A stretch of 64,000 nt of DNA from Thermoplasmata archaeon (GTDB lineage Archaea; Thermoplasmatota; Thermoplasmata; Thermoplasmatales; Thermoplasmataceae): positions 450,523 to 514,522 of the forward strand of contig JAJZZX010000001.1 in assembly GCA_021797355.1 (NCBI GenBank), read 5' to 3'. The notes under the pieces are model-generated. The model ran no database searches. It was given only the letters and a program-made list of their open reading frames with translations, and was not told the DNA's origin. Made by a program: the position numbers and the translations under genes. Position 1 is the stretch's first letter; each line of letters begins with the position of its first letter. Positions 13,730 through 24,732 of this stretch are shown piece after piece.

Positions 13730-14167
13730 ATGTTAGACGGCTACATCCCATTGTTGATCACCCTTGTATTAATGGTGTTGGGGATGATTGGGCTGTATGC
13801 AATTTTGCCTACCCTTGGTGAAAGCAGATTCAGGAGAGACAAGAAGTTCAGCCTTAAGCCAGATGAGATTGTCAGAAACCTGGTTTTGGAGAGGTCACCT
13901 CCTGCAAAGGACGGGACTTACCTAGATCCGTACGAAACGGGTGAAGTTGCCAGGGGGGAAATAGGAAAATTCGTAACCGTACAATATTATGTCATCATTC
14001 TGCTTTTCATACTATTCGACGTTGATATGGTTCTTCTTTTCCCGTGGGCATTTGATTTTAAGGCTCTAGGTTTGATACCTTTCCTTGAGACTTTGCTGTT
14101 CTTGGCTATGCCGCTGTTCGTGGTATACTATGCGTTCAAGGAAGGCTACATGAGGTGGCAGAAATGA
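13730..14167 (+). CDS. nuoA: Complex I subunit NuoA
   Basis: First gene of the complex I operon; 145 residues, three TM helices. The loop after helix 1 carries '[15 protein letters not shown]' and a longer than usual insertion (about 60-75). Helices 2 and 3 contain '[18 protein letters not shown]', the conserved acidic motif of NuoA/ND3. NuoA lies at the junction of the quinone-binding and membrane arms. Overlaps nuoB (ATGA). Confidence 0.9.
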
Positions 14168-14628
14168 AGAGTGGAGAGGGTGGTGCACTTACCACCACCG
14201 TTGATAAGGCTATGGAATGGGCCAGGAGTAACTCTCTTTGGCCCCTGACATTCGGGCTTGCATGCTGTGCCATAGAAATGATGGCAATCCAGGCCTCAAA
14301 TCTTGATATTTCAAGGTTCGGGAGTGAGATTTTCAGAAATTCCCCCAGGCAATCAGACCTTATGATTGTATCAGGAACAGTTACAAAGAAGATGGCACCT
14401 AGGCTCAGGAGGATCTATGACGAGATGCCATATCCCAAGTACGTTATCGCCATGGGCGTATGCGTTATTCAGGGAGGTCCCTACCATATGGGCTATTCCG
14501 TAGTGCTTGGTGTCGACAGGGTAGTGCCCGTGGACGTTTATGTGCCTGGCTGCCCGCCAACTCCGGAGGCGCTTACTTATGGCATCATGCTGCTCCAAAA
14601 GAAGATAAGGAACGAGGCTGACAGGTGA
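14164..14628 (+). CDS. nuoB: Complex I subunit NuoB (N2 cluster)
   Basis: Carries the terminal [4Fe-4S] cluster N2 that reduces quinone. 154 residues. The adjacent cysteine pair C34-C35 ([10 protein letters not shown]), C100 (MGVC) and C130 ([11 protein letters not shown]) are all present. I start it at the ATG (14164) that overlaps the nuoA stop rather than at the GTG three codons upstream. Soluble, at the membrane interface with NuoD. Confidence 0.93.
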
Positions 14629-14634
14629 TCTGCA

Positions 14635-15093
14635 TTGATTGAGATTCTCGAGGAGACTAAGGGCAAGGACGGAAGACGGAACATTAGGGTTGCCAAGGAA
14701 AACCTTGTTGCTCTTATTGCAGAACTTAAGAGCCAGGGGTATGATCATCTCTCCCTCATCACAGGAATAGACAAGAAAGATAAGCTGGAGGTAGTTTATC
14801 ACCTGCACAATGTGAAGGAAAACCAGTATATCGTTGTACGCACTGAGACCAGCGACGAAAGGGTGCCAAGCATTTCTTCGCTCTACCCGTCAGCAAACTG
14901 GGAGGAGCGTGAGCAATATGACATGTTGGGGCTTGTTTTCGAGGGGCATCCAAATATGAAGAGACTATTTCTGCCAGAATCCTGGGTAGGGCATCCACTC
15001 AGAAAGAATTATGATCTCTCAAAGGTGCAATACGTTAACATGGATGAGGACGGCAATGATTACGCAACATTTGATCCGGGAGATGGGTGGTAA
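14635..15093 (+). CDS. nuoC: Complex I subunit NuoC
   Basis: 152 residues; the 30-kDa peripheral-arm subunit, separate from NuoD here. The family signature 'SANWEEREQYDMLGLVFEGHP' region and 'GHPLRKNY' are clear in the C-terminal half. It begins with TTG at 14635, six bases after the nuoB stop, and its stop overlaps the nuoD ATG (TAATG). Confidence 0.9.
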   Translation: MIEILEETKGKDGRRNIRVAKENLVALIAELKSQGYDHLSLITGIDKKDKLEVVYHLHNVKENQYIVVRTETSDERVPSISSLYPSANWEEREQYDMLGLVFEGHPNMKRLFLPESWVGHPLRKNYDLSKVQYVNMDEDGNDYATFDPGDGW

Positions 15094-16226
15094 TGGTAGT
15101 TCCTGATACCGCTCAGGATACCTCGAAGGACTGGGTGGAGCTGAATATTGGTCCACAGCATCCTTCTACACATGGCGTCCTTAGATTAAAGGTGAAACTT
15201 GACGGGGAGATCGTCAAGGATGTTGAGCCAATTATCGGCTATCTCCACAGAAACGCTGAAAAACTCTGTGAAATGGATTATTATTGCGACGCATTAGTTT
15301 ACTTTGACAGGATGGACTACGTTGGAGCCATGAACATGGAACTGGGATATCTCGAAGCTGCAGAGAAGCTGCTTGGGATTCCACCTCCTGAAAGGGCCCA
15401 GTGGATAAGGGTAGTGATGGCAGAGCTGAGCAGGATAGCATCGCACCTGGTATGGGCCGGTGCCTTTGGCCTTGATCTGGGAATGTTGACCCCGTTCTTC
15501 TACTGCTTCATAGAAAGAGAGAAAGTCCTTAGGATATTTACGGCGGTCAGCGGTTCACGCCAGCAGACCAACTATATGAGCATTGGCGGAGTTTACCAGG
15601 ACATAGACGATCAAATAATTTATGACATAGAGCAATTCACTGAGGAATTTCCCAAGAAGCTTGAAGAGATCTTCAATACTTTTGTCAAGAATGACATCTT
15701 CATCTCAAGGAATAAGGGCATAGGAATACTTGAGCCAGAAGTTGCCATACAGTATGGTGTGACTGGCCCGATGCTAAGGGCATCAGGCATAGAGTATGAT
15801 GTCAGAAAGGCTGAACCATACCTTGTTTATGACAAGATCAATTTTGATATTCCAGTATCATATAAGAAGGACAATCTCGCCAGGTTTCTTGTCAGATTTG
15901 AAGAAATGAGACAGTCCGTAAAGATCATAAAACAGGCTATAAAGAAAATCCCAGATGGTCCATACTTCAATCCAAAGGCGAAAAAATCACTAATGATAAG
16001 GCTCCGCGGAGAAGGGGAGGTTTATGCAAGGACTGAGTCCTCCAAGGGAGAATTTGGCGTTTACCTTGTCGGCGATGGAGGCGTGAAACCATACAGGGTC
16101 CATGTCAGAAGCCCTGCATTGAAGAATCTGAGCGTACTCCCTGTTCTGGCTAAGGATGTAATGATTGCTGATCTATTTGCAATATCTGGCACCATAGATC
16201 TGGTATTTGGAGAGGTGGACAGATGA
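15093..16226 (+). CDS. nuoD: Complex I subunit NuoD
   Basis: 49-kDa subunit forming the quinone pocket with NuoB; 377 residues. Motifs: 'NIGPQHPSTHGVLRLKV', 'GYLHRNAEKL', 'YVGAMNMELGY', and at the C-terminus 'DVMIADLFAISGTIDLVFGEVDR'. The [NiFe]-binding cysteine pairs of related hydrogenases are missing at both ends, so this is a true complex I subunit. Starts at the ATG overlapping the nuoC stop; overlaps nuoH by four bases. Confidence 0.94.
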   Translation: MVVPDTAQDTSKDWVELNIGPQHPSTHGVLRLKVKLDGEIVKDVEPIIGYLHRNAEKLCEMDYYCDALVYFDRMDYVGAMNMELGYLEAAEKLLGIPPPERAQWIRVVMAELSRIASHLVWAGAFGLDLGMLTPFFYCFIEREKVLRIFTAVSGSRQQTNYMSIGGVYQDIDDQIIYDIEQFTEEFPKKLEEIFNTFVKNDIFISRNKGIGILEPEVAIQYGVTGPMLRASGIEYDVRKAEPYLVYDKINFDIPVSYKKDNLARFLVRFEEMRQSVKIIKQAIKKIPDGPYFNPKAKKSLMIRLRGEGEVYARTESSKGEFGVYLVGDGGVKPYRVHVRSPALKNLSVLPVLAKDVMIADLFAISGTIDLVFGEVDR

Positions 16227-17263
16227 ATGTTCTGCAGAGGCTCCAGGCATTTTTTGCAATACTTGGCCATTATCCATCATATATACTTGCCTACTTCTTC
16301 GAAACTCTCTTCATGATAATATTTGTAACTGTGATGCTCATAGTTATGATTTACCTGTTCAGGAAATACATGGCTAGAGTGCAGTTGAGAATAGGGCCAA
16401 ACAGGGTGGGGAAATTTGGGTCTCTACAGCTAATAGCTGACGCTCTTAAGCTGGTTGGGAAGGAAAGCATACTTCCCAGGAAGAGAGATGATCTTCCATA
16501 CAGGGTTGCCCCAATTGTGGTTTTTCTCGGGCTTATCATGGCATTTGCCATAATTCCCTACGGTGATTTCTACTATATAGGCTCCCTGACCGTTACACAT
16601 TCCAATGTTTCTCTGCTGCTTCTGTTCGCTGCGATTGCAATAATGCCAATAGGAGAGGTTCTTGCTGGAGTGAGTTCAAATAACAAATATGCTGTAATTG
16701 GCGCTCTCAGGGGCGTGGCAAAGGACATATCCTTTGAGGTCCCAATGATGATGTCTGTCCTTGCATTGGTAATGATGGCATCAGCCAGGACTTCAGAACC
16801 ACTTAACCTCACCAACCTTATCTCCGTTCAGTCCATTCCATATGGCATACCACAGATAATTGGCCTGGGAGTTTTTTTCATAGCGATGGTGGCAAGGGCC
16901 TCATATTCTCCATTTGATATGAGCGAGAGCGACAGTGAGCTGGTTTCTGGGCATTCAATTGAATATTCGGGTATGCGGTTCGGAATGTTTTACATGGGTA
17001 TGTTTGGGAGCATTTTCCTGGGTTCAATGATAGTATCATTGCTATATCTTGGGGGTTACAACGGGCCTTTCTCAGGGGATGCTGGGTTCATATATCTCTT
17101 GATAAAGGCAATGATCCTGGTGATAATATCGTTCACAATATGGCTCTCTGTTCCAAGAATCAGGATTGACAAATTCGTTAACATGGGATGGAAATACCTG
17201 CTACCTGCGGCGGTAATAAATCTCGTTATTGCAGGAATACTTACGTTGGGGTTGTCTCTATGA
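16223..17263 (+). CDS. nuoH: Complex I subunit NuoH
   Basis: 346-residue membrane subunit with about eight to nine TM helices, linking the quinone pocket to the proton channels. Seen: 'RVQLRIGPNRVGKFGSLQ', 'DALKLVGKE', 'GVSSNNKYAVIGALRGVAKDISFEVPMM' and the acidic 'PFDMSESDSELVSGHSIEYSG' loop typical of NuoH/ND1. Stop overlaps the nuoI start (ATGA). Confidence 0.94.
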   Translation: MNVLQRLQAFFAILGHYPSYILAYFFETLFMIIFVTVMLIVMIYLFRKYMARVQLRIGPNRVGKFGSLQLIADALKLVGKESILPRKRDDLPYRVAPIVVFLGLIMAFAIIPYGDFYYIGSLTVTHSNVSLLLLFAAIAIMPIGEVLAGVSSNNKYAVIGALRGVAKDISFEVPMMMSVLALVMMASARTSEPLNLTNLISVQSIPYGIPQIIGLGVFFIAMVARASYSPFDMSESDSELVSGHSIEYSGMRFGMFYMGMFGSIFLGSMIVSLLYLGGYNGPFSGDAGFIYLLIKAMILVIISFTIWLSVPRIRIDKFVNMGWKYLLPAAVINLVIAGILTLGLSL

Positions 17264-17694
17264 TAGAAGTGAAGGAACCTAAAAAGGAAGTGCCGCTGAT
17301 AGGCACAATTAAGGCCATAGCAAGTGTTGGAAAGCACATATTCCAGAAACCAGTGACACTGCAGTATCCAGAGGAGAGGCCGAACTATCCAGATAGGTTT
17401 AGATACAGGATATTCCTCAGTCTTGATGATTGTGTTGGCTGCACCCTCTGCGAGCAGGTTTGCCCGAACAGGAGCATTACAATGCAGAAGGTTAACAGGG
17501 ATAACCCACGCAACAAACGGCACATCTACCCTGACGTGAACTTTGGCACTTGCACTGTCTGCAGAAACTGTGAGGAAATCTGCCCCACTGATGCTATATA
17601 CCTTACCCACACGTTTGAGCTTGCGAGAACTAGAAACAGCTTTACATATTCGCCGGAGGAGCTTTCCCTGCCCGAAGATGAGGTAATTAAATGA
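17260..17694 (+). CDS. nuoI: Complex I subunit NuoI (2x[4Fe-4S])
   Basis: 144 residues with two four-cysteine clusters: C58, C61, C64, C68 (CVGCTLCEQVC) and C98, C101, C104, C108 (CTVCRNCEEIC). These are clusters N6a/N6b, which pass electrons to N2 in NuoB. Because no NuoEFG is encoded here, NuoI is the probable entry point for electrons from an unknown donor. Start is the ATG overlapping the nuoH stop; an upstream in-frame codon at 17188 lies inside nuoH and is rejected. Confidence 0.94.
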   Translation: MIEVKEPKKEVPLIGTIKAIASVGKHIFQKPVTLQYPEERPNYPDRFRYRIFLSLDDCVGCTLCEQVCPNRSITMQKVNRDNPRNKRHIYPDVNFGTCTVCRNCEEICPTDAIYLTHTFELARTRNSFTYSPEELSLPEDEVIK

Positions 17695-17939
17695 TTTACA
17701 CAATAATATTCCTCATATTTGCGATAATCCTTATCCCCCTTGCTCTGAAAACTGTTTCTGAAAAGACTCTCTCCCACTCAGCTGTATATCTAATGGTGTT
17801 TCTGATTGTTCTTTCCGCCTTATTCATATTCCTGGGAGGATCAATAGTTGGAGCCATAGAGCTTCTTGTATTTGTCGGAGCTGTTGTCACATTGCTGGTA
17901 TTCACGCTTATGCTGACTGGAGGTAAGGAACTTGAATAA
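17691..17939 (+). CDS. nuoJ: Complex I subunit NuoJ, N-terminal part (split)
   Basis: 82 residues with three TM helices, ending 'LLVFTLMLTGGKELE'. It matches the N-terminal half of NuoJ/ND6, including the glycine-rich third helix 'AIELLVFVGAVVTLLVF' that carries the conserved pi-bulge region. The C-terminal half is a separate overlapping gene. Fpo complexes of Methanosarcina also have a two-piece J subunit, so this is probably a real split and not a sequencing error. Overlaps nuoI by four bases. Confidence 0.82.
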   Translation: MIYTIIFLIFAIILIPLALKTVSEKTLSHSAVYLMVFLIVLSALFIFLGGSIVGAIELLVFVGAVVTLLVFTLMLTGGKELE

Positions 17940-18150
17940 CAAAGCATCTGCGGCAGCAGCAATATTCTTCTTGGTTGTATTTGGAATTGAGGTGGCCAGG
18001 ATTAGCGGTTCGTTTGTCCCCTCTTCTCAACAAATCTCACAGATAGGCATCAGTCTGTTCGGAAAATACGTAATACCGTTTGAGCTACTATCACTCATTC
18101 TAGTTGCTGGAATAATCGGAATGTTCTATATTGCAGGGAGGGAAGACTGA
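17932..18150 (+). CDS. Complex I subunit NuoJ, C-terminal part (split)
   Basis: 72 residues, two TM helices; the second contains 'YVIPFELLSLILVAGIIGMFYIAGRED', the usual end of NuoJ ('lPFelasvlLLvAliGA'). Start is TTG at 17932, eight bases inside the upstream half-gene in another frame, preceded by 'aggtaagga'. It is followed by nuoK with a one-base overlap (TGATGG). Confidence 0.8.
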   Translation: MNNKASAAAAIFFLVVFGIEVARISGSFVPSSQQISQIGISLFGKYVIPFELLSLILVAGIIGMFYIAGRED

Positions 18151-18449
18151 TGGAAATAATGCTCGTAAGTATGCTTTCCCTCATTCTGTTTGTTATTGGT
18201 CTCTATGGAATAATGACATCCAATGTGGGAATCAAGATGCTTATCTCACTAGAGATAATAATCAATTCCGCCATTCTGAATCTTGTTGCTGTGGCAGTGG
18301 CATATTCTTCGGTTGACCCCATAATACTGGCTCTTTTTGGAATAGCAATTGGGGCAGTGGAGTCTGTGGTTGGCCTTAGCATTCTGACTGCCACTTACAA
18401 GAAAGTTGGAAAAATTGCAATCTCCCTGCTTAAGGAGATAAGGTGGTAA
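18150..18449 (+). CDS. nuoK: Complex I subunit NuoK
   Basis: 99-residue, three-TM antiporter-adjacent subunit. Conserved glutamates are present in helix 2 (LISLEIIINSAILNL) and helix 3 (AIGAVESVVGLSIL), which form part of the proton path. Starts on the ATG that overlaps the preceding TGA. Confidence 0.92.
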   Translation: MEIMLVSMLSLILFVIGLYGIMTSNVGIKMLISLEIIINSAILNLVAVAVAYSSVDPIILALFGIAIGAVESVVGLSILTATYKKVGKIAISLLKEIRW

Positions 18450-18450
18450 A

Positions 18451-20388
18451 ATGTATCTGCCTGGATGGTTTATCTTCCTCAGCCCTCTTATAGGTGCTCC
18501 CGTTGCACTCGGCATTGGTAGGAAATATAGGAATCTTGCCGGCATAATCGCAAGTATAGCGGTGGGCGGTGCCCTGATTGCCTCCATAATTACATTCTTC
18601 TACGTTGATAGCGGGACGGTAGTGTCAAATAGCTCAAAACTTTACATACTTACCGGGAACTACGCGTATAACCATTATCTGTGGTTCCTCAATATAGACG
18701 CCGGAATATTCATCGATCGTCTGGCTGTAGTCATGGCCCTCATGGTATCGTTTGTATCGTTAATGATACATCTGTTTGCCATCTATTATATGAAGAATGA
18801 TCCAAACAGGCACGTTTATTTTGCGGAAACTTCGCTATTCACCGCCGGAATGCTCGGGCTTGTTGTGGCATCCAATCTTGTTCTGTTCTTCCTCTTCTGG
18901 GAGCTTGTTGGGCTCTGTTCATACCTCCTTATTGGATTCTGGTTCTTTAAGCCAAATGCCACTGCTGCTGCAAAGAAGGCCTTTATTGTCACAAGGGTAG
19001 GCGACTTGTTGTTCCTAGTTGGCATGGCAATCCTTTACGATTCACTGGTAAACTTCAGTGGGCTTGGCAATAACAGCCCACTCAGCATCCCATTCCTCAT
19101 ACAGAACGCCCCTGCCATCGCATCATACATTGGAAGGAATACGTTGGGGATAATAGCTGTGCTATTCCTGGCAGGAGCTGCTGGAAAGTCCGCCCAGTTC
19201 CCGCTGCATGTGTGGATACCGGATGCTATGGAAGGTCCAACTACCGTTTCAGCACTGATCCATGCAGCAACCATGGTCACCGCCGGCGTATATCTGGTGG
19301 CCAGGGTGTTCAACATATTTTACGCAGCAGCACCGTTTGCGCTTTATTCAGTTGCAATCCTGGGAGCTTTTACTGCGGTCTTTGCAGGCATAATAGGGAT
19401 ATTTGTCAACGATATCAAGCGGATACTTGCATATTCGACAATAAGCCAGATAGGATACATGCTAGCTGCAATAGGGCTAGGCGGTCTCTTTGGATATGGC
19501 GCGGTTCCCCTGGGGATGTTCCACCTTGTAGTGCACGCTGTATTTAAGGCGTTGCTCTTCATGGCGGCCGGGGCAATTCTGATAACTCTGATGGATCTCA
19601 GGGACACCAGGGAAATGGGCGGTCTCTGGCGCAGAATGCCAATGACCATTACGCTGCTGTTCATCGGATCGCTTGCCCTAATTGCGTTTCCTGGAACATC
19701 AGGGTACTTCTCAAAGGATACCATAATATCGGCATCATGGGTCTATTTCACTCAATATCACACTGCAGCCAGCTTTCTGCCCTGGTTATTTCTTGCCACA
19801 GGGGCACTGCTGACTACTCTCTATACATTCAGAATGTTCTTCAGGGTGGCAATCGGAAAACCGAGATCACATCTGGCTGAACACGCAAAGGACCCTTCAG
19901 TTTTTCCTTTGATCCCATTATTCATACTTGCAGCAGGAGCACTACTTCTTGGCCTGATACAGGTTCCTTTCTATAAATTCATCACCCCAAACTACGAATT
20001 CCCCGTTGTGCCCATCTACATTGAAGCTATCCCAATAACTCTTGTTGCGGTTGGGCTCATCGTCACGTATCTAATATATGGCACGGAAAGATGGACGAGA
20101 ATGGAATTCAGCCGGAATCACATTTATCGGCTCGCCAAGAACAAGTTCTACCTTGACACCATTTTCACAAATATTATCGCCGAAAGGGTCATAGCCCCAG
20201 TATCAGGTACATTTGCCAGATTTGAGGACCGTTACAATGCTGCCGTAGACGGGTTGGGAAAAGGAACATTGACACTGGGTGCGCTGTTCAGGAGAATCCA
20301 GGACGGTGTGGTTGAAAACTACTTTGTTGTGCTCATTGTGGGTATTTCTGTAGTTTTCATAATAATGGAACTTGCGGGGTTGATGTGA
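18451..20388 (+). CDS. nuoL: Complex I antiporter-like subunit NuoL
   Basis: 645 residues, about 16 TM helices; the distal proton-pumping subunit. Key motifs: 'LFFLFWELVGLCSYLLIGFWF' (helix-5 Glu), 'AGKSAQFPLHVWIPDAMEGPTTVSALIHAATMV' region with the helix-7 Lys and helix-8 His, and 'LAYSTISQIGYML'. The C-terminal part extends into the long lateral helix and final anchor helix (after residue 560), as in true NuoL and unlike NuoM/N. One base separates it from nuoK. Confidence 0.94.
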   Translation: MYLPGWFIFLSPLIGAPVALGIGRKYRNLAGIIASIAVGGALIASIITFFYVDSGTVVSNSSKLYILTGNYAYNHYLWFLNIDAGIFIDRLAVVMALMVSFVSLMIHLFAIYYMKNDPNRHVYFAETSLFTAGMLGLVVASNLVLFFLFWELVGLCSYLLIGFWFFKPNATAAAKKAFIVTRVGDLLFLVGMAILYDSLVNFSGLGNNSPLSIPFLIQNAPAIASYIGRNTLGIIAVLFLAGAAGKSAQFPLHVWIPDAMEGPTTVSALIHAATMVTAGVYLVARVFNIFYAAAPFALYSVAILGAFTAVFAGIIGIFVNDIKRILAYSTISQIGYMLAAIGLGGLFGYGAVPLGMFHLVVHAVFKALLFMAAGAILITLMDLRDTREMGGLWRRMPMTITLLFIGSLALIAFPGTSGYFSKDTIISASWVYFTQYHTAASFLPWLFLATGALLTTLYTFRMFFRVAIGKPRSHLAEHAKDPSVFPLIPLFILAAGALLLGLIQVPFYKFITPNYEFPVVPIYIEAIPITLVAVGLIVTYLIYGTERWTRMEFSRNHIYRLAKNKFYLDTIFTNIIAERVIAPVSGTFARFEDRYNAAVDGLGKGTLTLGALFRRIQDGVVENYFVVLIVGISVVFIIMELAGLM

Positions 20389-20389
20389 T

Positions 20390-21871
20390 ATGTTCATACT
20401 CATAATCTTCATTTTAATGATTCTGGCCAGCATTGGATCTTTTGCCTTCAATCAGAAAAGGAGGACATTTGTGGTGGCATCTACGGGTATCTTCCTTATC
20501 CTTACCATAGCATACAGCATACTGAGGTTTAGTTCCGGATACTCATCTGGCGGCTTTATGTCAGTGGAGAATTACGGAATTGCAACTTCAATAGGAATTT
20601 CATTTTCCATTGGTGTAAGCGGGTTGGCTGACGCACTGTTGATTCTTTCCGCGTCTGTCATATTCATATCAGCGTTTATAGGGGAGAGCCACGATTACAC
20701 ACCCACAATTTATTCATACATCCTTCTGGCTGAAGTGGGGCTCTTTGGAATCCTGATATCCAGGGATTTCCTGTTCTTCTATATATTCTGGGAGGTTGTG
20801 TTAATACCGGTATACTTCATGGTCGCACAGTACGGTGGAAGAAACAAGGATCATGTATCATTGAAGTTCTTCGTATATACCCATATCGGGTCTGTCTTCC
20901 TCCTGCTTTCAATATTCACAGTATATGCATATCACTATACCAGCACAGGCGTGTTCACATTCCAGATCAGCGCACTTATGCAGAGCAAATACATTGAGCA
21001 AATTCCGACATATCTTAGAGACTTTGCCATATTTGGCTTCCTATTTGCTTTTCTGGTAAAAATGCCATCTTTTCCAGTTCATTCATGGCTGCCTGATACG
21101 TATGAGACATCACCTTATCCTGGGACAGTGATTCTTGCAGGTGGGCTGTCTCTAATGGGTGGCTTTGGACTGTTCGGAATACTTTTGCCAGTCTACTCGG
21201 CCCTTGGAACACTGACTCTGCAGATACTGGTGGCTCTAGGCATAATAAGCCTGCTTTACTTTTCATTCACAGCCCTGATCCAGAAGAATCTCAAGAGAAT
21301 GATGGCGTTTGCCAGTGCAGGTGCCATGGGGTTTGTGACCCTTTCATTCGGTGCTGGCCTTCTGGAAGGAAGTGCATATGATGCAAACCTTGAGCTTGCA
21401 GGTGGAATGTTCCAGATTGTAGCCCATGGCCTAATAATGGCAATGGTCTTTACAGCACTATATTTCATAAAGAAATCTACCGGCAAGGAGACGACCTATG
21501 GATTGGGAGGAATATACAGGGAGGCGCCAATGTTGAGCACGTTTTTGCTTGCGGGGCTTCTCGCGTCTCTTGGCCTTCCAGGCCTTGCTGGCTTCATTGG
21601 AGAGTTCTCAATTCTGGTGGGCTCATTCAGTGCCATAGGGTGGCTCATTATTCTAGTCATACTGGCAATGATAGTCACAGCTTCTTATCACATATGGGCA
21701 GCGCAAAAATCCCTCTATGGGCCATATAACGAGAATTTGGGAAAAATTTCAGATATTCCAGCACACAGGTTCGCCATACTGCTGGGGACATTTGCTGGAA
21801 TATTCATTCTCGGTGTGGTACCAAACCTGATCTATGGCATCCTTGTTTCATACTTGGGAGGTATAATCTAA
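20390..21871 (+). CDS. nuoM: Complex I antiporter-like subunit NuoM
   Basis: 493 residues, about 14 TM helices, proton-pumping subunit. Seen: 'FFYIFWEVVLIPVYFMVAQYG' (Glu of helix 5), 'FLVKMPSFPVHSWLPDTYETSP' (Lys of helix 7) and 'KNLKRMMAFASAGAMGFVTL'. It overlaps nuoN by one base (TAATGA). Confidence 0.94.
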   Translation: MFILIIFILMILASIGSFAFNQKRRTFVVASTGIFLILTIAYSILRFSSGYSSGGFMSVENYGIATSIGISFSIGVSGLADALLILSASVIFISAFIGESHDYTPTIYSYILLAEVGLFGILISRDFLFFYIFWEVVLIPVYFMVAQYGGRNKDHVSLKFFVYTHIGSVFLLLSIFTVYAYHYTSTGVFTFQISALMQSKYIEQIPTYLRDFAIFGFLFAFLVKMPSFPVHSWLPDTYETSPYPGTVILAGGLSLMGGFGLFGILLPVYSALGTLTLQILVALGIISLLYFSFTALIQKNLKRMMAFASAGAMGFVTLSFGAGLLEGSAYDANLELAGGMFQIVAHGLIMAMVFTALYFIKKSTGKETTYGLGGIYREAPMLSTFLLAGLLASLGLPGLAGFIGEFSILVGSFSAIGWLIILVILAMIVTASYHIWAAQKSLYGPYNENLGKISDIPAHRFAILLGTFAGIFILGVVPNLIYGILVSYLGGII

Positions 21872-23316
21872 TGACAGCACCTAATTTACTTGCCGGACCG
21901 CAAATACTTCTGAGTTTCACCCCTGAGATTTTCCTTGGTCTGGTAGGCTTCGTAATTCTGGCACTTGGCGTATTCCGCATCCAGAAGCAGGTGATGGCGT
22001 GGGTCACATTCGGCTCGCTAGGCATATCGGCCATTCTTGTATATCTTATGTCCCCAGTGGATCACAGTGTATTCCAGGGGACTTTCACTTACACATATTT
22101 CGGCATCTATTTCGCTGTGGTAATGATTCTTTCCGGAATGCTAATTTCTTATCCCGCTACCCGGGCAATAAGATCGAGAAGTGAGGTCTTCTATGCCACC
22201 CTGCTCTTCGTCACAGTAGGGATGATTTTTGCTGCCTTCAGCTATAACATAATAACGCTGTTCATCGCTTTTGAATCGGTCAGCATAGGTACTTATATTC
22301 TTGCCAGTTTTGGAAAGACCAGAAGAAGTCTTGAGGGCACAATCAAATACTTCTTCACAGGCACAATTGCCACAGCTTTCATACTTTTTGGCGCTTCTTT
22401 CTTCTTCATAGATACAGGTACATTCAATCTGTCTGTCCTTCCGAGCGCATCACCCACTCCGGAACTCGTGCTAGCACTGACATTCCTGGTTATAGGCTTC
22501 GGTTTCAAGCTAGCAATTTTCCCAATGCACCAGTGGGCTATTGATACGTATGATGGCACGGAAAACTCAATTTCTGCATATCTTGCAGCTGGAAGCAAGG
22601 TGCTGGCATTCCTTGTGGTCCTGAAGATATTTCTAGTGGGCTTTTCCTCAGACTTCAGGGACGTGGGGTACCTATTTGTCATACTCTCCATACTGACAAT
22701 GACATACGGGAACGTTTCAGCACTGTCCCAGAATAACCTGAAGCGCCTTCTTGCTTATTCCAGTGTTGCCCAGGCTGGCTATCTCATCCTGGTGCTGGCA
22801 GTGGTGGCCCTAGTCGGCAATCCATCATCTCCAGTAGTTGGCGTTGCGGTAGCAGCTGGAATGTTCTATTCTCTTGTGTACATTTTCATGAAGGGCGGGT
22901 CATTCATAACCTTGAATACGGTCAAGAAAGATAACGTCCTTGTTAGCGACGTTTCTGGCCTTGCAAAGAAGTCGCCCTCCGTTGCTGTCAGCTTCTCAAT
23001 CCTGCTTCTTGCACTTGCAGGAATCCCCATAACTGGAGGATTCTTTGCAAAGTACCTGCTCTTCCTCTCTCTGGTTGAGGGCAACCTCTGGTGGCTGGCA
23101 GTTATTGCCATTCTTAATAGTGCAATTTCTGTCTTCTATTACTTCAGGGTAATACTTTATATGTTCGGAAAGGAGGCATCTTCATCAGAGCCATTTGATC
23201 TGTCAGCATTTGCAAGGGTTCCTGTATATGCCTCGGCATTAATCACTGTTGCCCTTTCTGTTGTAGTTGTATGGTGGCCAAATCTCATAGGCTTTGCCGG
23301 AGGGCTGTTTGGGTGA
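21871..23316 (+). CDS. nuoN: Complex I antiporter-like subunit NuoN
   Basis: 481 residues, about 14 TM helices; the third antiporter-like subunit. 'LFIAFESVSIGTYILASFGK', 'FGFKLAIFPMHQWAIDTYDG' and 'NLKRLLAYSSVAQAGYLI' carry the conserved Glu and Lys. Last recognisable nuo gene; two small unknown genes follow at 7 bases and by overlap. Confidence 0.93.
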   Translation: MTAPNLLAGPQILLSFTPEIFLGLVGFVILALGVFRIQKQVMAWVTFGSLGISAILVYLMSPVDHSVFQGTFTYTYFGIYFAVVMILSGMLISYPATRAIRSRSEVFYATLLFVTVGMIFAAFSYNIITLFIAFESVSIGTYILASFGKTRRSLEGTIKYFFTGTIATAFILFGASFFFIDTGTFNLSVLPSASPTPELVLALTFLVIGFGFKLAIFPMHQWAIDTYDGTENSISAYLAAGSKVLAFLVVLKIFLVGFSSDFRDVGYLFVILSILTMTYGNVSALSQNNLKRLLAYSSVAQAGYLILVLAVVALVGNPSSPVVGVAVAAGMFYSLVYIFMKGGSFITLNTVKKDNVLVSDVSGLAKKSPSVAVSFSILLLALAGIPITGGFFAKYLLFLSLVEGNLWWLAVIAILNSAISVFYYFRVILYMFGKEASSSEPFDLSAFARVPVYASALITVALSVVVVWWPNLIGFAGGLFG

Positions 23317-23323
23317 GATAAGT

Positions 23324-23689
23324 ATGAATATTGACAGCGATATGGAAATCATCAAAAGCGCCCTTATTTATGGGGATATGGATGATGCTGAGAACATTAT
23401 CCAGAAAAGGATCGTGGAAATGAAATTCCTCCTGAAGAGGCACAAGAACCAGATATACCAGTCTTACCTGTCATTCCTGCAGGCACTGGACAGCTTGCTG
23501 AGAGTGCAGATCGATCTTGAATCTTTCAAGCAGCAAGTAGGAAACATACATGGCATCGAAAATTTGCTGGAGGGAAATGCCGGTGAGCACGGGTACCTCA
23601 GTTCATTGTTTTATCTTCTCCAACTTTCTATGGACCGTTACAATGTAGCCTATCCAAAATACGACATGAAGAGGTGTGATGATCTTTGA
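23324..23689 (+). CDS. Unknown small protein at the end of the nuo operon (1)
   Basis: 121 residues from the ATG at 23324, seven bases after the nuoN stop. Soluble and predicted mostly helical; heptad-like stretches (AENIIQKRIVEMKFLLKRH; SYLSFLQALDSLL) suggest a helical bundle or coiled coil. No cysteines except one near the C-terminus and no motif I recognise. Position suggests a complex I accessory, assembly or electron-input factor. A longer frame from 23294 would overlap nuoN and is less likely. Confidence 0.65.
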   Translation: MNIDSDMEIIKSALIYGDMDDAENIIQKRIVEMKFLLKRHKNQIYQSYLSFLQALDSLLRVQIDLESFKQQVGNIHGIENLLEGNAGEHGYLSSLFYLLQLSMDRYNVAYPKYDMKRCDDL

Positions 23690-23940
23690 AAGCTAGATTT
23701 GATCAGTGTTTTTCTCATCTTGAAGAGGACGAGGAATCAGCGGCGGAATGCATTCACTGCCTAAAAAAATATGGCGAACAGATTTTCTTCGATCAGGCCC
23801 AAGGAAGGCTGGTAATGGGCCGCGAAATGTACGATGACAGCTACTCCGGTGCAATGAAAACCCTTACGGACATCCTGAAGATAAAGACAAGGGCAGATTA
23901 CGAAAGCATGGACAGGAAATACAACCTGACAATGTACTGA
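23686..23940 (+). CDS. Unknown small Cys-containing protein at the end of the nuo operon (2)
   Basis: 84 residues, start TTG at 23686 overlapping the previous stop (TTGA). Cysteines C8, C22 and C25 with His24 (ECIHCLKK) could bind a metal or Fe-S cluster, or form a redox-active CxxC. The rest is acidic/helical and ends 'RKYNLTMY'. I do not recognise the family. Overlap with its neighbour and the lack of a promoter put it in the nuo transcript. Confidence 0.62.
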   Translation: MKARFDQCFSHLEEDEESAAECIHCLKKYGEQIFFDQAQGRLVMGREMYDDSYSGAMKTLTDILKIKTRADYESMDRKYNLTMY

Positions 23941-23994
23941 AAAGATTAGAACACAGGTCAAAAATTTAAATCATCTTATCCTCTCTTGCAAAAC

Positions 23995-24732
23995 ATGCCC
24001 TTGGATTTCTCGCCGTCCATAGTCTTGAGGAAGGATGAAGGTCTGAACAGGATAATAATTTCAAATGGAGTGAACAATGGAATCAGCAACCAGGGACTGC
24101 GGGAAATGCTGATGTCTCTTACGGATGCCATGTCGGATAACGAAAATCCCATTCTTATAACCGGGTCAGGGGATAAGGCATTTTCAATGGGGTATACTGC
24201 AAACTGCACAAAGATATCAGACAAGATACATCTGGAGGAGGCTTACCATCTGGGGACAAGTGTGGCCAGAATCCTTCTCCGCAGCCAGGTTCCCATAATG
24301 GCTGCAGTAAACGGCTACGCGTTGGGACTTGGGCTGGAGATAGCACTCTGTTGCGATTTCGTAATCGCATCTGCAAAGGCGAAATTCGGCATGCCGGAAA
24401 TCAAGTACGGCATCCCCTCTCTGACAGGTTTTGTCCCTGAACTGACTGAGAAGTACAGCGGAGCACTCTATGCAAGGGTGAAGAGTGGGGAAATTTTCGA
24501 TGCAGAAGAAGCCAAGAAACTTGGCATGATAACATCAATCCTGCCGGCGCTAAATTTCAATAAGGCGGCGATTGAATACGCGCGGAAATTGAAACCTGAC
24601 CTGGTTAAGATGCTTAAGCCGGAAGAAAAGGTAAGCCAGTACCGAACGGCCATAGATTCTATGTTCTTTCGCCTCTATAATCCTACATGTTCAACCATGA
24701 TGGAGTTAGAGAGGTTCAGAAACAGTATTTGA
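23995..24732 (+). CDS. Enoyl-CoA hydratase/isomerase (crotonase) family protein
   Basis: About 245 residues. Crotonase fold: 'PILITGSGDKAFSMG' (first oxyanion strand), 'VPIMAAVNGYALGLGLEIALCCDFVIA' (second), 'AKFGMPEIKYGI'. The usual hydratase Glu positions are not plainly matched: the residue pair after 'GYALGLGLEIAL' has one Glu, but the second (normally in 'GMPEi.lGl.P') is in a shifted setting ('FGMPEIKYGIPS'), so hydratase, isomerase or another crotonase reaction are all possible. A TATA-like 'aaatttaaat' lies about 28 bases upstream of the ATG; a TTG at 23986 is the alternative. Overlaps the 3' end of tatC tail to tail. Confidence 0.8.
   Translation: MPLDFSPSIVLRKDEGLNRIIISNGVNNGISNQGLREMLMSLTDAMSDNENPILITGSGDKAFSMGYTANCTKISDKIHLEEAYHLGTSVARILLRSQVPIMAAVNGYALGLGLEIALCCDFVIASAKAKFGMPEIKYGIPSLTGFVPELTEKYSGALYARVKSGEIFDAEEAKKLGMITSILPALNFNKAAIEYARKLKPDLVKMLKPEEKVSQYRTAIDSMFFRLYNPTCSTMMELERFRNSI

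Follow-up and report, generated by a model that had tools for sequence, protein, structure and literature searches.

Two small order-specific genes close the complex I operon of Thermoplasmatales and may code for accessory proteins of its membrane arm

Two short genes located immediately downstream of nuoN in the window, which is the whole 64,000-nucleotide stretch of DNA analyzed here, are real, are specific to one order of acid-loving archaea, and track the respiratory complex I of Thermoplasmatales. The products of these genes (ORF1 and ORF2) would be soluble, order-specific accessory proteins of this enzyme that are expressed from the nuo transcript with coupled translation. Most likely they are supernumerary subunits of the membrane (proton-pumping) arm that would sit on its cytoplasmic side, where ORF1 would go with the antiporter-like subunits NuoL and NuoM and ORF2 with NuoN or the core side, each protein probably being anchored through an invariant C-terminal tail. 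Judged as a whole from sequence comparisons, this model of lineage-specific accessory subunits of the membrane arm is the one we favor, and we regard it as close to an even call.

The genes upstream of ORF1 are arranged in the order nuoA-B-C-D-H-I-J1-J2-K-L-M-N, and the NuoB, NuoD, NuoI, and NuoN proteins of the window match their models (Table 1). A first-pass annotation of this DNA had placed ORF1 and ORF2 directly after nuoN with a 7-nucleotide gap and a 4-nucleotide overlap, and these coordinates are exact, the gap separating the nuoN stop at position 23316 from the ORF1 start codon at position 23324. The overlap suggests that translation of the two ORFs is coupled. The nuo transcript probably ends with ORF2, since the sequence TTTAAA, which is TATA-like on the basis of the archaeal TATA consensus, precedes the ATG of the next gene at position 23995. 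That gene (23995-24732) codes for an enoyl-CoA hydratase-like protein and apparently has a leaderless start and a TATA-like element of its own, and a homologue is frequently the next gene after ORF2 in relatives. In the window, nuoJ is divided into two genes (17691-17939 and 17932-18150), like the published nuoJJ of Cuniculiplasma.

The operon codes for the same enzyme, in the classic gene order, as the 11-subunit complex I that lacks NuoEFG in archaea and bacteria (nuoABCDHIJKLMN), as given in the accessible text of PMC3750248, which also describes AMD plasmas with NuoABCDHIJKLMN. Unlike that enzyme, the Thermoplasmatales operon is closed by two extra order-specific genes. The corresponding portion of PMC5155288 lists only nuoABCDHIJJKLMN for Cuniculiplasma, with ORF1 and ORF2 left unlisted.

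Table 1. Positions and main characteristics of the genes and sequence elements discussed. Positions refer to the window unless a locus is named.
Feature	Position	Strand	Remarks
ORF1	23324..23689	+	ATG start, 121 aa, soluble, all-helical; invariant C-terminal signature R105-Y106, P111, R117, mostly C118
ORF2	23686..23940	+	TTG start, 84 aa, soluble alpha/beta; covarying C8/C25, invariant C-terminal N80-x-T82-x-Y84
ORF1-ORF2 start/stop overlap, 4 nt (TTGA)	23686..23689	+	kept in 69/73 adjacent pairs
nuoN, partner gene directly 5' of ORF1	21871..23316	+	
nuoM, antiporter-like subunit	20390..21871	+	moves with ORF1 in genus g19
nuoL, distal antiporter-like subunit	18451..20388	+	moves with ORF1 in genus g19
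nuoA-B-C-D-H-I-J1-J2-K, remainder of NuoEFG-less operon	13730..18449	+	
TTTAAA, TATA-like	23965..23970	+	25-30 nt 5' of ATG at 23995; next gene enoyl-CoA hydratase-like
NuoF-family protein and formate dehydrogenase alpha	L278 6367-7845 and 3638-6379		contig C7
Cassette B NuoM	L199 5697-7175 (G019) and L091 (G036)		Ala for His346

The two ORFs are not chance reading frames, because each is present in 57 of the 61 genomes of the family sample, in all 32 genomes of good quality, and in all 19 genera. The four genomes without matches are 62-83% complete. In a class sample of 400 genomes, a profile search for ORF2 identified 78 carriers, which comprise 60 of 62 genomes from the window's own family (f1), five of five from f3, and 13 of 14 from f4, with none among the 319 genomes of other families. 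The ORF1 profile identified 81 genomes, consisting of the same 78 and three weak matches in family f2 (G214, G241, and G263; E 4e-5 to 8e-4). These three lie inside frames of 266-1147 aa and were taken as chance, as was an ORF2 match (E 3e-4) inside a 336-aa frame of genome G418.

Presence of the pair follows presence of the enzyme. A Thermoplasmatales-type NuoD, defined by a score of at least 452 bits, occurs in all 62 f1 genomes, in five f3 genomes, and in 13 f4 genomes, and the one f4 genome in which both ORFs are missing also lacks NuoD. Both ORFs are found in 78 of the 80 sampled genomes that carry this type of NuoD. The two misses, both in f1, are trivial because the contigs stop inside the nuo operon, in nuoN for G038 and in nuoL for G044. 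The class sample includes 302 genomes from other orders, and none of these gave a credible match to either ORF. The 292 genomes of the phylum samples, searched with profiles to which f3 and f4 sequences had been added, yielded no credible new lineage. Of 13 loci from other orders of the class, seven extend past nuoN, and the ORFs read there are unrelated. A scan of viral contigs returned nothing. Scanning named genomes turned up 61 loci, with carriers that include Ferroplasma acidarmanus, Acidiplasma aeolicum, Thermogymnomonas acidicola, Thermoplasma, and Cuniculiplasma; the other loci belong to uncultured clones or metagenome bins, almost all of which carry the label Thermoplasmata, Thermoplasmatota, or a group inside one of these. 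Co-occurrence with the core enzyme, combined with no credible match elsewhere in the class sample, is the distribution expected of an accessory subunit.

Gene order is also conserved. ORF1 lies directly between nuoN and ORF2 at 73 of the 76 ORF2 loci, and the three exceptions are two genomes of genus g19, described below, and genome G049, whose locus contains a run of N. In the latter assembly (L063), NuoN and ORF1 appear to be fused, with X in the translation, which we consider an artifact of the run of N, and this row was excluded from the ORF1 counts and from the synteny count. The spacing between nuoN and ORF1 is -4 to +12 nucleotides at 73 of 73 loci, and the overlap between ORF1 and ORF2 is exactly 4 nucleotides at 69 of them. 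Other Thermoplasmatales had been named in the first-pass annotation as the place to look for both genes after nuoN, and that is where they are found. Co-transcription of the pair with complex I, as proposed there, and a dedicated link to the enzyme gain strong support from this order-wide synteny and from co-occurrence with the NuoD type.

Neither protein has a hydrophobic stretch or is hydrophobic enough to span a membrane, the maximum Kyte-Doolittle value over 19 residues being 0.73 for ORF1 and -0.03 for ORF2 versus 2.41 for NuoN. ORF1 evolves fast (mean column identity of 41%), as would suit a peripheral protein better than a core one. Near its C terminus, R105, Y106, P111, and R117 are invariant in all 77 sequences and C118 is retained in 68, and ORF2 similarly ends with N80, T82, and Y84, which are invariant in all 76. 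The AlphaFold model of ORF1 contains six helices and a poorly predicted C-terminal tail (pLDDT 81.9, pTM 0.77), and that of ORF2, which is confident, has a beta hairpin between two pairs of helices (mean pLDDT 88.6, pTM 0.74). The ends are the lowest-confidence parts of both models. Termini that are conserved yet least ordered would fit tails that fold on, or bind, a partner.

Neither protein matches a Pfam or NCBIfam family, Foldseek returned nothing below an E value of 1 for either model, and searches of PDB sequences gave only weak and unrelated matches, such that neither protein has a confident PDB match by sequence or by fold. The best family matches for ORF2, zf-BED (E 0.14) and FMN_red (E 0.2), are sub-threshold and at chance level, and its score against the NCBIfam FMN reductase is 17.8 bits, with a cut-off of 225. 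A comparison of the ORF2 model with the Aquifex NuoEF chain 9heg_A (Z 2.2, 62 aligned residues, rmsd 3.6) was rejected as a fold assignment because the score is at chance level and ties with unrelated rows.

The first-pass annotation had drawn attention to C8, C22, and C25 of ORF2, which are present in the window's protein together with H24 and form a C-x13-C-x2-C pattern, and had offered the protein as a candidate for electron input, cluster assembly, or docking. Among the 76 ORF2 sequences, 56 have both C8 and C25 and 20 have neither; one is never found alone. Of the 56 with the pair, 42 have a cysteine at the intervening position 22 and 14 have A, V, or T there, and all three cysteines are found together in 42 of the 76. 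All 58 sequences from f1 keep H24, but all 18 from f3 and f4 have Arg instead. The 20 sequences without the pair consist of all 13 from f4 and seven from f1 of the E-plasma and Cuniculiplasma type, the latter forming one clade in the NuoM tree. In f4, the N-terminal helix that bears C8 is missing and no cysteine occupies the aligned positions in any of the 13 sequences, and both genes are nevertheless still in place. The cysteines are therefore not conserved among orthologues, a refuting condition that the first-pass annotation itself had set, and the proposed role in electron input or cluster assembly through them is not supported.

An ORF2 that substitutes for NuoEFG as an electron input or Fe-S docking partner, using cluster-binding or redox cysteines, would suit an operon that lacks nuoEFG, and it would suit the 42 sequences that carry all three residues. 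The accessible text of PMC5155288 doubts NADH oxidation by the Cuniculiplasma enzyme and leaves its electron donor open, and that of PMC11238625 describes the donor of 11-subunit complex I enzymes as unknown. We consider this role very improbable, given that 20 of the 76 proteins have neither C8 nor C25, that C22 is often A, V, or T, that the gene stays put after the cysteines are lost, and that searches of Pfam, NCBIfam, and PDB sequences gave no ferredoxin, thioredoxin, or NuoE match. Thus, ORF2 has neither the conserved cofactor ligands nor the sequence match to a family that would mark an electron-input subunit. The replacement of C22 in 14 of the 56 proteins that keep the pair similarly argues against a CxxC thiol-redox or structural zinc protein.

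Instead, C8 and C25 look like a structural pair that was lost at least twice, rather than a cofactor site needed by the enzyme. They would probably form a disulfide or provide two metal ligands, in either case joining helix 1 to helix 2 in a manner that is dispensable. A protein stabilized in this way by zinc or a disulfide might serve as a regulator, or as an anchor between complex I and some other membrane or cytosolic partner such as the real donor, with no transfer of electrons. The strict joint presence or absence of the two residues in all 76 sequences and the compact, confident model of ORF2 are compatible with this idea, as is the zf-BED match, weak and at chance level as it is. However, no partner came out of the analysis, the cysteines are dispensable, and there is no fold match, and we view a regulator or anchor as improbable.

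The statement in the first-pass annotation that NuoEFG is missing holds for the operon but not for the genome, where a NuoF-family protein is encoded on another contig. This protein of 492 aa scores 397 bits against the NuoF model (cut-off 559), and its gene adjoins one for a formate dehydrogenase alpha subunit (775 bits, cut-off 666). The NuoF-family protein carries an N-terminal extension that bears cysteines, and its formate dehydrogenase neighbor has a NuoG-like N terminus. A search for NuoE (PF01257) gave no match. NuoF-like proteins are patchy, being present in 24 of the 61 family genomes, and so are not a general donor for this enzyme; this distribution, and the adjacent formate dehydrogenase alpha subunit gene, led us to reject the NuoF-like protein as a universal donor.

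The best clue to the working partner of ORF1 is the gene layout of genus g19 REARRANGEMENT, which points to NuoL and NuoM. The nuo operon of genome G019 reads A-B-C-D-H-I-J1-J2-K-N-ORF2 and is without nuoL, nuoM, and ORF1 (L200). The same genome has two standalone nuoL-nuoM-ORF1 cassettes (L198 9012-12658 and L199 9037-5350), each flanked by genes on the opposite strand. Against NCBIfam models, the M proteins of the cassettes exceed the curated cut-off for NuoM, and the L proteins exceed that for the NuoL subfamily. In the second genome of the genus, G036, ORF1 also follows NuoL/NuoM-type genes at two places (L090 and L091); the whole core operon is seen in G019 only, as that of G036 is cut by a contig end. 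ORF1 has been relocated and copied together with nuoL-nuoM, and ORF2 has been kept with nuoN and the core, in what amounts to one event in one genus represented by two genomes. The cassettes are native copies because both group with the Ferroplasma/Acidiplasma clade in the NuoL and NuoM trees (support 0.999 and 1.0). Both cassettes retain the invariant charged residues, save for three conservative Arg/Lys exchanges in the NuoL of cassette A and one change in the NuoM of cassette B. There, both genomes carry Ala in place of His346, numbered on the window's NuoM fragment, a residue that is His in all 73 other rows.

This layout suggests that any role of ORF1 in assembly or docking would be directed at the distal antiporter arm (NuoL/NuoM) and not at the electron-input side. 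It also bears on the possibility that ORF1 and ORF2 are passengers with unrelated functions that are simply carried along by the nuo transcript, which is conceivable in that the case for an interaction is built from genomic patterns. Passengers would hardly be expected to be absent without this complex I and present wherever it is seen whole, or to have moved and been duplicated with nuoL-nuoM as ORF1 has, and we judge this to be the least probable of the explanations considered.

Cyanobacterial NDH-1 offers a parallel, in that small lineage-specific proteins are tied to its distal antiporter-like subunits (the accessory subunits NdhP and NdhQ; the exchangeable distal modules NdhD1/F1 versus NdhD3/F3 with CupA/CupS), according to the accessible text of PMC7021789. 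Genus g19 likewise has a small partner for each of its two alternative L-M pairs. The gene order of an exchangeable distal module of the cyanobacterial type, with at least two L/M sets that each have their own partner and a single core, was found in g19 only. In contrast to soluble ORF1, both NdhP and NdhQ lie in the membrane with a single helix, and homology was not detected; moreover, the module exchange in g19 is read solely from gene order. A bolder model holds that both ORFs code for new complex I subunits and that the g19 enzyme is modular, with one core and two exchangeable nuoL-nuoM-ORF1 arms, in which ORF1 would act as a clamp specific to its arm, marking or seating it. This is rather unlikely in our estimation. 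If true, the cassette arms may differ in pumping stoichiometry, as one NuoM has lost a histidine, and the genus would provide an archaeal parallel to the module switching of cyanobacterial NDH-1.

A more serious competitor is that both proteins are dedicated assembly factors that leave the enzyme, with ORF1 acting as a small helical chaperone in the insertion or holding of NuoL/NuoM and with ORF2 acting on NuoN or the core. The synteny, the co-occurrence, and the g19 cassettes are equally expected of such factors, and the ORF1 model bears only a loose resemblance to TPR-like helical domains, its best comparison being with 5v5t (Z 8.6, 98 aligned residues, rmsd 3.1), a score in the range that is non-specific for helical models. 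Although the genomic pattern is the same for stable subunits and transient assembly factors, coupling and operon position lead us to prefer subunits: the conserved 4-nucleotide overlap and the last place in the operon suggest that the two proteins are made in roughly equal amounts, which suits subunits better and is not decisive. Assembly factors are a possibility to be taken seriously, and we rank them as less probable than accessory subunits.

Evolutionary-rate covariation was also considered. The branch rates of ORF1 and ORF2 tracked those of NuoL, NuoM, and NuoN and not those of NuoH and NuoI. This link to the pump arm was rejected because the unrelated flanking control genes GatD/GatE gave higher partial rho values (0.54 and 0.48) than did the pump arm (0.24 and 0.06), in a comparison that dropped taxa lacking one or more of the 14 genes and kept 38 of 56.

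FpoO is a small extra subunit of the F420H2 dehydrogenase of methanogens whose gene is located at the end of the fpo operon. ORF1 and ORF2 resemble it as small extra genes that close a complex I-like operon at its 3' end, and they have no Fpo-type match in Pfam or NCBIfam, the comparison being made through family models. In Helicobacter and Campylobacter, replacement subunits are encoded at the E and F positions of the operon. ORF1 and ORF2, in contrast, come after nuoN and are without conserved redox motifs. The likeness lies in the absence of the NADH module from a complex I without NuoE/F, an analogy drawn in the accessible text of PMC5155288.

We found no paper on either gene in the open-access literature searched. 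The accessible text of PMC5155288, PMC3750248, PMC11238625, PMC7021789, PMC12524180, and PMC11349054 mentions neither, and that of the last two treats complex I in general terms only. If ORF1 and ORF2 are subunits, they are missing from the published inventories (PMC3750248 and PMC5155288, in their accessible portions) and would provide handles for purification of the complex. The g19 arrangement, in turn, is a natural test of how a complex I could detach and exchange its distal pump arm. Elsewhere in the class, three loci from other Thermoplasmata orders (L211, L213, and L214) carry two consecutive NuoM-type genes in a complex I-like operon.
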